Assembly: GCA_025356815.1 (NCBI GenBank)
Contig: JANXQL010000138.1
Location: 1-41,919 of the forward strand
DNA length: 41,919 nt
Reading direction: 5' to 3'
DNA from: Pseudomonadota bacterium
GTDB lineage: Bacteria > Pseudomonadota > Gammaproteobacteria > Steroidobacterales > Steroidobacteraceae
The notes below the pieces were generated by a model. That model did not search any database. It was not told where the DNA came from and saw nothing but the letters and a program-made list of their open reading frames with translations. Made by a program: the position numbers and the translations under genes. Every line of letters begins with the position of its first letter. Position 1 is the first letter of the stretch. This document shows positions 7,961 to 14,558 of the stretch, in pieces.

Positions 7961-9022
7961 TCAGTCGAACAACGCGGCGATGGAGTCCACGTTCGGCGCC
8001 GGCACCACGCCGCGCTCGGTGATCAGGGCCGTCACCAGTGCCGCAGGCGTGACGTCAAACGCGGGATTGCGCACGGCGACGCCTTCAGGCGCCCATTGCT
8101 GCCCTGCGAAGCCGCGAACCTCCGCCGCAGCGCGCTCCTCGATGGGAATCCCCGCGCCATCCGCGAGTCGCCGGTCGATCGTCGACAGCGGGGCTGCGAC
8201 ATAGAACGGCAGCCCGTGGCGATGCGCCAGCACCGCCACCATGTAGGTGCCGATCTTGTTGGCGAAATCACCGTTGGCCGCCACGCGGTCGGCGCCGACG
8301 ATCACCGCATCGACCTCGCCTCGCTGCATCAGGTGGCCGGCCATGTTGTCGGTGATCAGCGTGACCGGGATGTCCTCCTGTTGCAGCTCCCAGGCGGTGA
8401 GCCGCGCACCCTGCAAGAACGGGCGTGTCTCGTCGGCGATCACCTGCAGATGCTTGCCCGATGCGACCGCGGCGCGGATCACGCCGAGCGCAGTCCCGTA
8501 GCCGCCCGTCGCGAGCGCGCCGGCGTTGCAGTGCGTGAGCACGCGCATGCCGTCCGAGAGCAACGCCGCGCCGTGGGCGCCCATCGCGCGGTTTGCGGCG
8601 ACATCGGCGGCGAGCACCGCATGCGCTTCCTGCAGCAGCCTGCCGGCCACCACGCCGGGCGGCGCATCCGCCAGCGCATCGAGGCAGAGGCGCATGTGCT
8701 CCAGCGCCCAGCGCAGGTTCACCGCCGTCGGGCGGCTCGCATCGAGAACCGCGAAGCCCTCGTCCAGCGCCGCGGCGAACGCGTGCGCGCAAAGGTCGCG
8801 GCAACGCAGCGCCTCGAGTGCGACCCCGTAGGCGGCGGCGCAGCCAATCGCCGGGGCGCCGCGCACCACCATGCTGCGGATTCCGTCGGCAACCGCCGAC
8901 GCGCTGTCGTACGCCAGTCGCTCGAAGCGCGCCGGCAGCACACGCTGGTCGATCATCTCCAGCACGCCGCGCGCCTCGTCCCAGCGAAGCGTCTCGATGA
9001 TCAGCCGGGGTGACGGGCTCAT
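7961..9022 (-). CDS. mtnA: S-methyl-5-thioribose-1-phosphate isomerase
   Basis: Isomerises 5-methylthioribose 1-phosphate to 5-methylthioribulose 1-phosphate in methylthioadenosine salvage; relatives also act on 5-deoxyribose 1-phosphate. The 353 residues fit the family. Key segments are VRGAPAIGCAAAYG (about 53-66), the active-site Cys165 in THCNAGALATGGYGTALG, and the catalytic Asp245 in GADRVAANGDFANKIGTY, which together separate MtnA from eIF2B-type relatives. I placed the start at ATG 9022-9020, with SPSPRLIIETLRW following; the frame runs further upstream but only as antisense to mtnP. Its ATG overlaps the mtnP stop (ATGA), so the two are translationally coupled. No mtnB, mtnC or mtnD genes of the classical pathway are present in the window. 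Confidence 0.96.
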   Translation of the reverse strand: MSPSPRLIIETLRWDEARGVLEMIDQRVLPARFERLAYDSASAVADGIRSMVVRGAPAIGCAAAYGVALEALRCRDLCAHAFAAALDEGFAVLDASRPTAVNLRWALEHMRLCLDALADAPPGVVAGRLLQEAHAVLAADVAANRAMGAHGAALLSDGMRVLTHCNAGALATGGYGTALGVIRAAVASGKHLQVIADETRPFLQGARLTAWELQQEDIPVTLITDNMAGHLMQRGEVDAVIVGADRVAANGDFANKIGTYMVAVLAHRHGLPFYVAAPLSTIDRRLADGAGIPIEERAAAEVRGFAGQQWAPEGVAVRNPAFDVTPAALVTALITERGVVPAPNVDSIAALFD

Positions 9023-9900
9023 GGCGCGGCCGCGCGGCGCCCGAGCACGCGCCCGGCAACCGCATCCAGACGCGCGCACAGCACCGGGTCGCGCGCGTCG
9101 GGCGAGGTGATCAACGCGTACTCGAGCGCATGCTGACAGCCCTGCGGGCAGGCGCCGCCCTCGATGCGAGCAACCCGCGGGGCCACCTGCCGGACGAGAT
9201 TGCGGGCATGGTCCGCGTTCGCGTGCAGCGTGCGCACGATCATCTCGACGCTGACGTGATCGTGGTCCGGGTGCCAGCAGTCGAAGTCGGTCACCATCGC
9301 GACGGTCGCGTAGCACAGCTCTGCCTCGCGGGCGAGCTTGGCCTCCGGCATGTTGGTCATGCCGATGACGTCGCAGTTCCAGCTGCGGTAGAGCTCGGAC
9401 TCCGCCTTGCTGGAGAACTGCGGCCCCTCCATGACCAGGTAGGTGCCGCCGCGAACGTGGCGGATGCCCGCTTCGGTCGCGGCGACGGTGAGCGCGTCGC
9501 CGAGCCGGCTGCAGACCGGGTGGGCGAGTGACACGTGGGCGACGAGTCCGGTACCAAAGAAGCTCTTCTCGCGGGCATAGGTGCGATCGATGAACTGGTC
9601 GACGATCACGAACGTGCCGGGTGGCAGATCCTCACGCAGCGAACCCACGGCACTCACCGACAGCACCTGGGTCGCGCCGAGGCGCTTCAGCGCGTCTATG
9701 TTGGCGCGGAAATTGATTGCCGACGGCGGCAGCCGATGGCCGCGGCCGTGGCGCGGCAGGAACGCGAGCGGCTGACCCGCAAGCTCGCCGAGCAGGATCT
9801 CGTCGGAGGGCTCGCCGAACGGCGAATCGACCTTCACCCAACGCGTATGGGCGAGGCCGTCGATCGCGTACACGCCACTTCCGCCAATCACTGCCAGCAT
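9019..9900 (-). CDS. mtnP: S-methyl-5'-thioadenosine phosphorylase
   Basis: Cleaves methylthioadenosine (by-product of polyamine and homoserine-lactone synthesis) with phosphate to adenine and methylthioribose 1-phosphate; family members also take 5'-deoxyadenosine. The 293 residues contain GGSGVY (6-11), PRHGRGHRLPPSAINFRANI (phosphate/ribose site), MEGPQFSSKAES, GMTNMPEAKLARE, and TDFDCW (204-209). The Asp of this last motif favours a 6-aminopurine (adenine) over hypoxanthine, so MTAP rather than the inosine-type enzyme of pseudomonads. That distinction is from family knowledge. It lies 15 bases after the aldolase/dehydrogenase gene and overlaps mtnA by four bases. Confidence 0.95.
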   Translation of the reverse strand: MLAVIGGSGVYAIDGLAHTRWVKVDSPFGEPSDEILLGELAGQPLAFLPRHGRGHRLPPSAINFRANIDALKRLGATQVLSVSAVGSLREDLPPGTFVIVDQFIDRTYAREKSFFGTGLVAHVSLAHPVCSRLGDALTVAATEAGIRHVRGGTYLVMEGPQFSSKAESELYRSWNCDVIGMTNMPEAKLAREAELCYATVAMVTDFDCWHPDHDHVSVEMIVRTLHANADHARNLVRQVAPRVARIEGGACPQGCQHALEYALITSPDARDPVLCARLDAVAGRVLGRRAAAP

Positions 9901-9915
9901 GGCTCGTACCTCGTG

Positions 9916-11889
9916 TCAGATCACGCGCTCGTTGCCGCCATCCACCGGCAGCTGCGCGCCGGTGACCTTGTCGAACAGCGATCCGCACATCTCCGCGGCC
10001 AGTTCCGCGACGTCGCGACTGCACACCTCGACCTTGAGCAGGTTGTTCGTGCGGTACTGCGCGACGCTGATCCCGTACTGCGCCGCACGCGCGGCAAGCA
10101 CCGCCTCGCTCCACAGCGCAGTGTCGAAGACGGCGTTCGGATGCAGGATGTTGACGCGGATCCCGTCGCTGGCCCACTCGAGCGCGGCGACCCGCGCCAG
10201 CTGGGTGAGCGCCGCCTTCGAGGCGGAGTAGGCGGCAGCACCAGGCCCCGGCGCCGGCACGTTCTTGGAGCCGATCACGACCACCCGGCCGCCCCGTTGC
10301 GCGAGTCTCAGCAGCGGGTGGCAGTCTCGCAGCAGCGCGAGGTTCGCGTCGACGTTGACGCGCATGACGCGCGCCCAGTCTGCGTCCGAGAGCGACTCAA
10401 TTCGCGTCCCGCCCGGGAACACGCCGGCGTTAAGGACCAGCAGGTCAAGCCCGCCGAACGCCTGCACGCCGGCATCCAGCGCATTGGCGCATGCGGCGGG
10501 GTCGGTCACATCGCACGCGACCCCGAGCACGTCCTGGCGGCCGAACAGCGTCGTGACGGCGGGGTCCACATCAAGCGCGATCACCGCCGCGCCGCGGGCG
10601 AGCAGGGCGTCGACGCAGGCCCGGCCGATGCCGGAGGCCGCGCCGGTGACCAGGCCCACCTCGCCGGCGAACGGTCGTGGTGCGCCGCCGCGGCCGAGCT
10701 TGGCCTGCTCTAGGTCCCAGTATTCGACGTCGAAAAGGTCCGCCTCGGACAGTGCCTGGAAGCCGCCGAGCGCGGTCGACGCCTCGATGACGTCGATCGT
10801 GTGAGCGTAGATGTCGCGCACGATTACCATCTCGCGCACGCTACGACCGGCGCAGCCGAGCCCGAAGGCCGGATCGAGCACCACTCGCGGCGCCGGGTCC
10901 AGCATTCGCAGTGGCCTGCCGGCGCGCGCCGCCTGGCGCTCGAAGTACTGCCGGTAGTCGGCGACGTAGCGCTCCACATCGCCACCGAGCAGCGGCAGCC
11001 GCTTGGTACGGAGCACGTGGTCGGGCGTTGCAGTGCCCTGTTGCGAGACGAGCGCCACATCCGAGCGCTGCGCAAAGGCGAGGAATCCCTCATCCGAATG
11101 GATCGACAGCAGCAGCGGCTTGCCTGCGGCCGCTGACAGCGCGCGGCGCAGCGCGGCGACTTGCGCACGGGTGACGCTGGCCGCCACCGGCGGCGCCCGC
11201 CGGACGCGCCGGTCCGTCGCGTGGCGCGCGAGGTACGCCTCGGCGCGCGCCACCAGCGCGATCATGCGCTCGTAGGATTCGCGGGCCGTGTCGCCGAAAG
11301 AAAAGATGCCATGGTTCATCAGCACCATGCCCTGTGTTCCGGCATGGGCCTGGCGGGCATACTCGCGCGCGCACGCGCGCGCAAGGTCGAAGCCCGGCAT
11401 CACGTACGGGATCACGACGACGTCGGTGCCATAGATCTCGGTGATCCGACGGGCACCGTCAGCGGTGTTGGTAACCGCGAGCAGCAGGTCGGCGTGCGTG
11501 TGGTCCACGTAGCGATGCGGCAGCAAGGCGTGCAGGATCGCCTCGACCGACGGCGCCGGTGCGCCGGCACGCATCACGTGGGTGGCAAGCTCGCTGACCA
11601 TCTGGGCGTCGGAGAGCCGCTCGAGCGAGGCGAGCCTGCGCAAGTAGTCGAGCCGCACCGGCGCGAAGCCCCCGGCCTGGATCGACTCTAGATCCCAGCC
11701 GCTGCCCTTGACGTAGAGAACCTCGTGTTCGTCGCCGAGGACATCGGTTTCGCGCAACTTGACCGAGGTGTTGCCGCCGCCGTGCAGGACCAGCGACGGA
11801 TCGCGACCGAGCAGCCGCGAGGAATACACGCGCAGCGCAAGTTCGTCCGGCTGGCGCGCGGCCTCGGACTCGTCCCAACGTTCGCTCAC
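9916..11889 (-). CDS. Bifunctional class II aldolase / short-chain dehydrogenase (RhaD-ADH-like fusion)
   Basis: Two enzymes on one 657-residue chain. Residues about 1-400 form a class II (Zn) aldolase: GGGNTSVK (37-44), an H130-T-H132 pair in YVDHTHADLLLA, and H193 in LMNHGIFSFG as likely metal ligands. Residues about 408-657 form an SDR: TGAASGIG (415-422, nucleotide loop), LNAG (486-489), Ser541, Tyr554 and Lys558 (YSASK). The same fusion occurs in rhamnose catabolism, where it cuts rhamnulose 1-phosphate and acts on lactaldehyde. No rhamnose genes are present here. It heads a tight operon with mtnP (15-base gap) and mtnA, so the likely substrate is 5-methylthioribulose or 5-deoxyribulose 1-phosphate, giving DHAP plus an aldehyde for the SDR domain. 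The GTG start at 11889-11887 has GAGG six bases upstream. Domains are certain; the substrate is inferred. Confidence 0.9.
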   Translation of the reverse strand: MSERWDESEAARQPDELALRVYSSRLLGRDPSLVLHGGGNTSVKLRETDVLGDEHEVLYVKGSGWDLESIQAGGFAPVRLDYLRRLASLERLSDAQMVSELATHVMRAGAPAPSVEAILHALLPHRYVDHTHADLLLAVTNTADGARRITEIYGTDVVVIPYVMPGFDLARACAREYARQAHAGTQGMVLMNHGIFSFGDTARESYERMIALVARAEAYLARHATDRRVRRAPPVAASVTRAQVAALRRALSAAAGKPLLLSIHSDEGFLAFAQRSDVALVSQQGTATPDHVLRTKRLPLLGGDVERYVADYRQYFERQAARAGRPLRMLDPAPRVVLDPAFGLGCAGRSVREMVIVRDIYAHTIDVIEASTALGGFQALSEADLFDVEYWDLEQAKLGRGGAPRPFAGEVGLVTGAASGIGRACVDALLARGAAVIALDVDPAVTTLFGRQDVLGVACDVTDPAACANALDAGVQAFGGLDLLVLNAGVFPGGTRIESLSDADWARVMRVNVDANLALLRDCHPLLRLAQRGGRVVVIGSKNVPAPGPGAAAYSASKAALTQLARVAALEWASDGIRVNILHPNAVFDTALWSEAVLAARAAQYGISVAQYRTNNLLKVEVCSRDVAELAAEMCGSLFDKVTGAQLPVDGGNERVI

Positions 11890-12902: not shown

Positions 12903-13976
12903 TCAGCCGGCGCGCCGCAGCGCGGGGCGCCGTGCGACCCCGGCAAGCGTTCCGCCATACAGATCCTTCGGGTTCGCGAGGCGCGGTACCAGGTCGATGC
13001 GCCGACGCAGGCTCCCGTCCTCCTCCTGCAGCAGCTGGTGCAGGAAGCGCAGCGCGGAATAGTCCTCGAGCGCGAAGCCGACCGAGTCGAAGATCGTGAT
13101 GTCGGCAGGCGAGGTGCGACCGGGCGCGCGACCGCGCAGCAGGTCGGCAAGCTCGGTCGCCGGGAAGTCCGCCGGCATCTGCTGGATCTCGCCTTCGATT
13201 CGCGACTGTGGCGAGTACTCCACGAACACCCTGGCGCCGGGCATCGTCAGCACGTCGGCGTGCAGCTCGGTCTTGCCGGGGCAGTCGCCGCCGACGGCGT
13301 TGAGGTGCATGCCGGCACGCACCATCGGCGGCGTGAGGATCACCGCGTTGCGCTTGTCGGCGGTCACGGTCGTGACGATGTCCGCCCCCTGGCACGCATC
13401 CTGGGTGGAGGCACAGCGCACGATGCGCAGGTCCGCCATGTCCGCCATGTCAGCGAGGTTCGCCGCGAGCTTCGCGGTTGCGGCGCCATCGACGTCGAAC
13501 AGTCGCAGCTCACGGATGCCGAGCAGGCGATAGAACGCAATGGCCTGGAACTCGCTCTGCGCACCGTTGCCGATCAACGCCATGACGCGGCTGTCGGGAC
13601 GGGCGAGATGACGCGCGGCCATCGCCGAGGTCGCCGCGGTACGCAGCGCCGTGGTCACCGTCAGCTCCGACAGCAGCAGCGGATAGCCGGTGGCGACGTC
13701 CGCCAGCACGCCGAAGGCGGTGACGGTCAGCAGGCCAGCAGCCGTGTTGGTCGGATGTCCGTTGACGTACTTGAACGAGTACAGTTCGCCATCGCTCGTT
13801 GGCATCAGTTCGATGACGCCGACCGCGGAGTGGCTCGCCACCCGAGCCGACTTGTCGAACGCATCCCAGCGGCGGTAGTCCGCCTCGATCTGCGCCGCGA
13901 GCCGCTCGATGAAGACGCCCGGGCCCTGCGTCCCGACCAGGCGCTGCACGTCGCTGACACCGATGTAATCGACCAT
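12903..13976 (-). CDS. Ornithine cyclodeaminase
   Basis: Converts ornithine to proline and ammonia with NAD bound as a catalytic cofactor. The 357 residues are typical of the Pseudomonas-type enzyme and longer than the alanine dehydrogenase/mu-crystallin relatives. Visible are KYVNGHPTNT near the active site, the Rossmann turn LIGNGAQSEFQA (134-145), and NAVGGDCPGKTELH with Asp231 at the position of the catalytic Asp of the P. putida enzyme. It is the first gene after the divergent AsnC-type regulator and feeds on ornithine made by the next gene, arginase. ATG at 13976-13974 starts the protein. Confidence 0.93.
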   Translation of the reverse strand: MVDYIGVSDVQRLVGTQGPGVFIERLAAQIEADYRRWDAFDKSARVASHSAVGVIELMPTSDGELYSFKYVNGHPTNTAAGLLTVTAFGVLADVATGYPLLLSELTVTTALRTAATSAMAARHLARPDSRVMALIGNGAQSEFQAIAFYRLLGIRELRLFDVDGAATAKLAANLADMADMADLRIVRCASTQDACQGADIVTTVTADKRNAVILTPPMVRAGMHLNAVGGDCPGKTELHADVLTMPGARVFVEYSPQSRIEGEIQQMPADFPATELADLLRGRAPGRTSPADITIFDSVGFALEDYSALRFLHQLLQEEDGSLRRRIDLVPRLANPKDLYGGTLAGVARRPALRRAG

Positions 13977-14135: not shown

Positions 14136-14558
14136 ATGGACGACACCGACCGCCAGTTGCTCGGCCTGCTGAGGGCCGACGCGCGCGCCACCGTGCTCTC
14201 CCTCGCCCGGCGCCTGGGCGTCTCGCGCGGCACGGTGCAGAACCGCATCGCAAGGCTCGAGCGCGACGGAGTGATCCTCGGCTACACGGTGCGGCTGCGC
14301 GAGGCGGTGGAGACGCCGCGCATCACGGCGCTGATGAACATCGCCGTCGACAGCAACCGCGAGGACGCCGTCCGCCGTGCCCTCGAGACGGACCCGTCGG
14401 TCAGCGTGCTGCACTCGACCACGGGGCGCTGGGACCTGGTGGCGGAGTTGCACGCGGAGTCGCTGGCGGCGTTCGATCGGGTGCTCGAGCGCATCCGGCG
14501 AGTGGAGGGCATCGCACGCACCGAAACCTCGCTGCTGTTGTCCACCCGCACGCTCTGA
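14136..14558 (+). CDS. Lrp/AsnC-family transcriptional regulator
   Basis: The 140 residues have the standard family layout. An N-terminal winged helix-turn-helix (about 2-60) begins DDTDRQLLGLLRADARATVLSLA and has its recognition helix in GVSRGTVQNRIARLERDG. A RAM (amino-acid binding, oligomerising) domain occupies about 65-138. The strong AAGGGAGG ribosome site precedes ATG 14136. It is divergent from the ornithine cyclodeaminase and arginase genes, the usual position of a local arginine/ornithine-responsive activator. Which effector it senses cannot be read from the sequence. Confidence 0.9.
   Translation: MDDTDRQLLGLLRADARATVLSLARRLGVSRGTVQNRIARLERDGVILGYTVRLREAVETPRITALMNIAVDSNREDAVRRALETDPSVSVLHSTTGRWDLVAELHAESLAAFDRVLERIRRVEGIARTETSLLLSTRTL

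Follow-up and report, generated by a model that had tools for sequence, protein, structure and literature searches.

A bifunctional aldolase/short-chain dehydrogenase encoded with mtnP and mtnA points to a fused, probably oxidative variant of the dihydroxyacetone phosphate shunt

The DNA examined here (the window) is a stretch of 41,919 nt on contig JANXQL010000138.1, from a genome of the Steroidobacteraceae (labelled G000; 4.0 Mb, 95% complete). Its minus strand encodes a protein in which a class II aldolase is fused to a short-chain dehydrogenase/reductase (SDR), followed by mtnP and mtnA, and the locus raises the question of which pathway this fusion serves. A fusion of the same architecture is known as RhaEW (YuxG of B. 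subtilis, Caur_2283), a rhamnulose-1-phosphate aldolase fused to an L-lactaldehyde dehydrogenase. MtnP and MtnA are components of the dihydroxyacetone phosphate (DHAP) shunt, which in the available parts of the literature comprises MtnP or MtnN/MtnK, MtnA and the aldolase Ald2/DrdA (R. rubrum, E. coli ATCC 25922, B. thuringiensis). The operon is interpreted here as a DHAP shunt for 5'-deoxynucleosides whose last two steps would be fused, with a redox step that is most likely an NAD+-dependent oxidation, and this reading is given a probability of roughly 0.78. On comparative evidence, the operon would encode a variant of the known shunt, fused and probably oxidative, rather than a pathway of a new kind. 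The term 'one-polypeptide DHAP shunt', used in a preliminary description of this DNA, was an overstatement, as MtnP and MtnA would act first and the fusion would carry out just the two steps that follow.

Proteins were assigned to families with NCBIfam and Pfam models at curated cut-offs. The fusion gene (9916-11889, minus strand, 657 amino acids, GTG start), matching NF006196 and the Pfam families Aldolase_II and adh_short, was found to lie 15 bases from mtnP (9019-9900, minus strand, 293 amino acids), which encodes a 5'-methylthioadenosine (MTA)/5'-deoxyadenosine phosphorylase. This gene shares a 4-base ATGA overlap with mtnA (7961-9022, minus strand, 353 amino acids), encoding a 5-methylthioribose/5-deoxyribose 1-phosphate isomerase. 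MtnP scored 499.2 bits against NF006492 (cut-off 437) and 301.9 bits against TIGR01694 (cut-off 274.85), and MtnA scored 431.8 bits against TIGR00512 (cut-off 279). The three genes form a tight minus-strand operon, their order, spacing and strand as previously described all being confirmed by the gene calls. In holding an MTA-type phosphorylase, an MtnA-type isomerase and a class II aldolase, all over cut-off, the operon resembles the DHAP shunt. It differs from the shunts described in the available sources, where a separate fuculose-type aldolase is used and the dehydrogenase is not assigned, in that a single protein combines aldolase and dehydrogenase.

The fusion was identified as a full-length member of NF006196 (PRK08324.2-4; 1017.4 bits, cut-off 831, residues 1-657, end to end), a model for bifunctional aldolase/short-chain dehydrogenases that names no substrate or pathway. 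Its aldolase domain (about 11215-11889; PF00596, 78.1 bits, cut-off 22.2), middle region (about 10675-11214) and SDR domain (about 9916-10674) all lie on the minus strand. An AlphaFold2 model (58-sequence alignment) had a mean predicted local distance difference test score (pLDDT) of 91.3 and a predicted template modelling score (pTM) of 0.90. Foldseek gave as the best match of the aldolase half 3m4r, a class II aldolase domain of Thermoplasma acidophilum (42% identity, template modelling (TM) score 0.94 by target), while the other half matched SDR structures.

Residue conservation was counted over 101 aligned rows, of which 57 were mtn-linked, 11 rha-linked and 33 other; the codons given are all on the minus strand. 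His130 (11500-11502), His132 (11494-11496) and His193 (11311-11313), which from family knowledge we take to be the three metal ligands, were conserved in 101/101 rows and thus in all three groups. Glu116 (11542-11544), presumably the acid/base residue, was present in 57/57 mtn-linked rows, with Asp at this position in 10/11 rha-linked rows. In the SDR half, Asp440 (10570-10572), at a position expected to confer a preference for NAD(H) rather than NADP(H), was found in every mtn-linked (57/57), rha-linked (11/11) and other (33/33) row. The presumed SDR catalytic residues Ser541 (10267-10269), Tyr554 (10228-10230) and Lys558 (10216-10218) each occurred in 57/57 mtn-linked and 11/11 rha-linked rows. 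Asn487, for which an SDR role is likewise assumed, is present in the window fusion and in 46/57 mtn-linked rows. That both halves keep their metal and catalytic residues, as had been proposed, was confirmed in the alignment, and these residues are conserved across relatives. Glu76 of DrdA is described in the available text as both metal ligand and acid/base (PMC6079011).

GTDB genomes were searched for relatives of the fusion; 306 places encoding one were found, and the best-scoring 80 were kept as loci. In 46 of these 80, mtnA is the immediate same-strand neighbour of the fusion (gap <400 bases), lying downstream of it in 37 loci and upstream in nine (Actinomycetota), and in three more it was nearby, namely after mtnP (L003), on the opposite strand (L005) or 2.7 kb off (L021). 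As mtnA adjoins the fusion in so many relatives, and in two gene orders, the linkage appears to be more than chance. Among the 31 loci without linked mtnA, 14 have a contig end within 2.5 kb, and 28 of the 31 genomes hold an MtnA match elsewhere (26 over cut-off). Overall, mtnA was present in 77/80 fusion genomes against 41/117 genomes sampled from the window's order, a comparison that is not lineage-matched. On the fusion tree the mtn label changed 13 times, compared to a mean of 33 after shuffling. The pattern extends to plasmids, mtnA adjoining the fusion in Ruegeria AD91A and THAF33 and mtnK-mtnA lying in the same region as the fusion in Shinella WSC3-e and R. rosettiformans. Of the window's genus, two further genomes were sampled, and both lack the fusion as well as mtnA. 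A tie between the fusion and DHAP shunt genes is well supported by these comparisons. The association of the fusion with mtnA thus recurs, but the tight trio of fusion, mtnP and mtnA was, apart from the window, observed in L003 alone.

Together, the families, operon, residues, linkage and co-occurrence found in the sequences suggest the following route, in which substrates, redox direction and any channelling are predictions. MtnP would use phosphate to convert 5'-deoxyadenosine or MTA to adenine and a 5-substituted ribose 1-phosphate, which would be isomerized by MtnA to the corresponding ribulose 1-phosphate. The aldolase half, which is metal-dependent, would then cleave this compound to DHAP and acetaldehyde or methylthioacetaldehyde, and the SDR half would, most likely, use NAD+ to oxidize the aldehyde to acetate or methylthioacetate, as in its RhaEW relatives. 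Cleavage of 5-deoxy- or 5-methylthio-ribulose 1-phosphate by the aldolase half is considered very likely. MTA and 5'-deoxyadenosine both fit as the starting substrate. Spermidine synthase activity is the usual main source of MTA, and no match to this family (PF01564) was found in G000, while a control search was positive in 11/14 genomes. For this reason 5'-deoxyadenosine is the likelier main substrate in this genome, with the absence of spermidine synthase not being firm because G000 is only 95% complete.

Alternatively, the fusion could be a RhaEW enzyme that adjoins mtnP and mtnA by chance. It shares about 30-38% identity with rhamnose-linked fusions, as well as their two-domain architecture, metal-type His, NAD-type Asp and SDR catalytic residues. 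However, it falls below the cut-off of the rhamnose model TIGR02632 (446.8 bits, cut-off 567.75), carries Glu116 rather than Asp, and is linked to mtnA, not rhaI. Plasmids, together with three genomes from the order of the window, provided the rha-linked fusions (n=11), and these relatives represented the two characterised RhaEW proteins. All 11 were placed on one side of a branch with a Shimodaira-Hasegawa-like approximate likelihood ratio test (SH-aLRT) value of 100 (8/8 in an earlier tree), with the 57 mtn-linked rows on the other, so the window fusion does not group with rhamnose enzymes. Class-specific columns hold, in most rows, Trp65, Met164, Phe198 and Leu330 on the mtn side versus Gly, Arg, Trp and Arg on the rha side, and the loss of two Arg would fit a substrate that lacks the additional hydroxyl found in rhamnulose. 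No rhizobial-type RhaI was found in G000, nor in the operon (E. coli-type RhaA was not searched for). RhaI was over cut-off in 0/36 fusion genomes, with a weaker match in two, and RhaI and RhaM of R. leguminosarum and a rhamnulokinase-like gene of Sphingobium had no match in the 80 loci. Given also the recurrence of mtnA linkage, a chance neighbour of this kind is extremely improbable, and membership of RhaEW was rejected on the basis of the TIGR02632 score, the separate clade and the lack of RhaI in G000. The fusion, lying on the non-rhamnose side of the tree, would thus belong with MtnP and MtnA and not with rhamnose genes, as first proposed, while its recruitment from rhamnose catabolism is not supported as stated, the direction of descent being unsettled. 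Ordinary nucleoside catabolism, in which an MtnA-like isomerase would turn ribose 1-phosphate into ribulose 1-phosphate, to be cleaved to DHAP and glycolaldehyde, with oxidation of the latter to glycolate, is also improbable, if less so. NCBIfam has a ribulose-1-phosphate aldolase model (NF053831, matched by another protein), a haloarchaeal nucleoside route with glycolaldehyde is described in the available text of PMC9700705, and some loci carry uridine or purine-nucleoside phosphorylases and nucleoside-type importers. The window phosphorylase, however, is of the MTA family over cut-off, the isomerases at these loci belong to the MtnA family, and an MTAP-family phosphorylase was found with E <1e-70 in 29/36 fusion genomes (10 over cut-off), with only weaker matches in five and none in two.

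For the redox step, the preliminary description had the SDR half reduce the aldehyde. The characterised Chloroflexus RhaEW argues against this, as according to the available text it produces DHAP and L-lactate when NAD+ is supplied, neither of them when NAD+ is left out, and has no activity with NADH, i.e. no reductase activity (PMC3870299). In Deinococcus deserti and Sphingobium, genes for lactate oxidation adjoin rha-type fusions, which also favours oxidation. The mtn and rha clades share the NAD-type Asp and the SDR catalytic residues, which points in the same direction. A reductive version, with the same aldolase step but an SDR half that makes ethanol or methylthioethanol, would agree with the many reductases of the SDR family and with the alcohols reported for known shunts. 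In the accessible text, the R. palustris product is 2-(methylthio)ethanol, presumably formed via an alcohol dehydrogenase not yet named (PMC5893883), and shunt acetaldehyde is converted to ethanol during aerobic growth of E. coli (PMC10986504). In both organisms the alcohol is made by enzymes other than the fusion. Set against the behaviour of RhaEW and the shared Asp440 and catalytic residues, the reductive version is unlikely, and on this analysis the SDR half would probably work as an oxidase.

Several observations weigh against the reading of the operon as a fused, oxidative DHAP shunt. The 80 loci include close relatives, so their counts are not independent, and the rha and mtn sides of the tree are separated by long branches, which drew a warning from the tree-building tool. 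In 17/80 loci linked mtnA is lacking despite at least 2.5 kb of sequence on both sides, no mtnA was seen in the genomes of L014 and L059 or in the small metagenome-assembled genome of L074, and mtnP lies beside the fusion in few loci. Additional separate SDR genes were found beside the fusion in L015 (two), L019 and L021, and those of L015 and L021 are not needed by the model. Sugar kinases (FGGY or ribokinase-type) occur near the fusion in L013, L014 and L059; therefore, the fusion family is not confined to one substrate, and these three fusions probably act on another sugar phosphate. Finally, 37 of the 41 mtnA-bearing genomes sampled from the window's order are without MtnD over cut-off.

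This last count bears on the absence of classical methionine salvage, which had been put forward as a telling sign. Neither MtnD nor MtnC was found over cut-off in the whole G000 genome, where two cupin-like MtnD matches reached 21-22 bits, so the noted lack of classical mtnC and mtnD extends beyond the window and, as in the DHAP shunt, the MtnC and MtnD of the MtnBCD route are missing. No MtnK was found in G000. Besides the fusion, the genome encodes a single PF00596 protein, which belongs to the PRK07490 type and for which no match to MtnB was listed at E<=1e-20. Among the 36 fusion genomes, MtnD and MtnC were each over cut-off in one, the same genome (G006), which has no linked mtnA. Across the window's order, MtnD was over cut-off in 5/117 genomes, just two matches being near full-length. 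Because MtnD is so rare in the order, its absence is not diagnostic, and MtnD loss was rejected as evidence for the shunt, being order-wide background.

Upstream of the fusion on the same strand, at a gap of 85 bases, lies an arginase gene (11975 to about 12892, minus strand; TIGR01229 283.6 bits, cut-off 227.6), preceded by an ornithine cyclodeaminase gene (12903-13976, minus strand; NF005762 533.7 bits, cut-off 350), the first of the run. The transcription order is therefore ornithine cyclodeaminase, arginase, fusion, mtnP and mtnA, and the operon probably extends through the two upstream genes. A gene for an Lrp/AsnC-family regulator (14136-14558) is situated upstream of the run, divergent from that for ornithine cyclodeaminase. 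A promoter scan found nothing, and terminator-like sites occurred at the level expected by chance. In L003, arginase and ornithine cyclodeaminase genes also precede the fusion on the same strand, in the order of the window.

Other neighbours of the fusion were identified among the 80 loci. An apt-like gene is present in seven (three were checked, all over adenine phosphoribosyltransferase cut-offs), a BMP-type ABC importer in five, a nupC-family importer in one, and an MTA/5'-deoxyadenosine deaminase-like amidohydrolase in three, while an MTA phosphorylase and a purine-nucleoside phosphorylase lie beside the fusion in L015 and L021, respectively. These neighbours, together with mtnK, fit 5'-deoxynucleoside salvage. 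On the R. rosettiformans plasmid, the region that carries the fusion also has mtnK-mtnA followed by transketolase/DXS-like genes and one for a RuBisCO-like protein (L100, 14979-20073). Pyruvate dehydrogenase-like genes are also near the fusion in L014, the fusions of L013, L014 and L056 pass the NF006196 cut-off as well, and a rhizobial group (L089, L101, L102) sits apart from the mtnA-linked cases.

Two loci carry class II aldolases that are not fused to an SDR. On S. meliloti pSymB, an lsr-type (autoinducer-2) transporter operon is followed by a class II aldolase gene (L083, 7001-8251) whose product shares about 41% identity with the window fusion and has its middle region, but lacks the SDR half. 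A Pusillibacter plasmid (L107, 3230-13035) encodes an unfused class II aldolase, a DUF985 cupin (found again beside the fusion in L021), an SDR, MtnA, a BMP importer and DeoD. When the fuculose-type aldolase of this cluster, used as a stand-in for Ald2/DrdA, was compared with the aldolase half of the fusion, blastp gave no match. The cluster was considered as proof of a pathway role for the fused SDR; this use was weakened because the cluster's SDR resembles fused SDRs (30-32% identity) no more than it does other SDRs of the set (up to 38%), and because some fusion loci carry an extra SDR too.

In the part of the literature covered, which does not include one key paper, no earlier account of the DHAP shunt with a fused aldolase and dehydrogenase was found. 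The family is tied in print, as far as was found, to rhamnose, and in the present data much of it is not. The reading proposed here would give a substrate and a pathway to a common family named only 'bifunctional aldolase/short-chain dehydrogenase', and would supply a candidate enzyme for the unassigned aldehyde step of the DHAP shunt. It predicts acid and NADH, not alcohol, as the product in these bacteria, and would offer a natural fused pair for studying the transfer of a toxic aldehyde. More tentatively, and at somewhat less than even odds, there may be a widespread oxidative shunt in which one polypeptide cleaves 5-deoxyribulose 1-phosphate and hands acetaldehyde straight to its NAD+-dependent SDR. 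If true, 5'-deoxyadenosine, a by-product of radical-SAM enzymes, would yield adenine, DHAP, acetate and NADH without release of the aldehyde, a role that would span Pseudomonadota, Actinomycetota and several other phyla.

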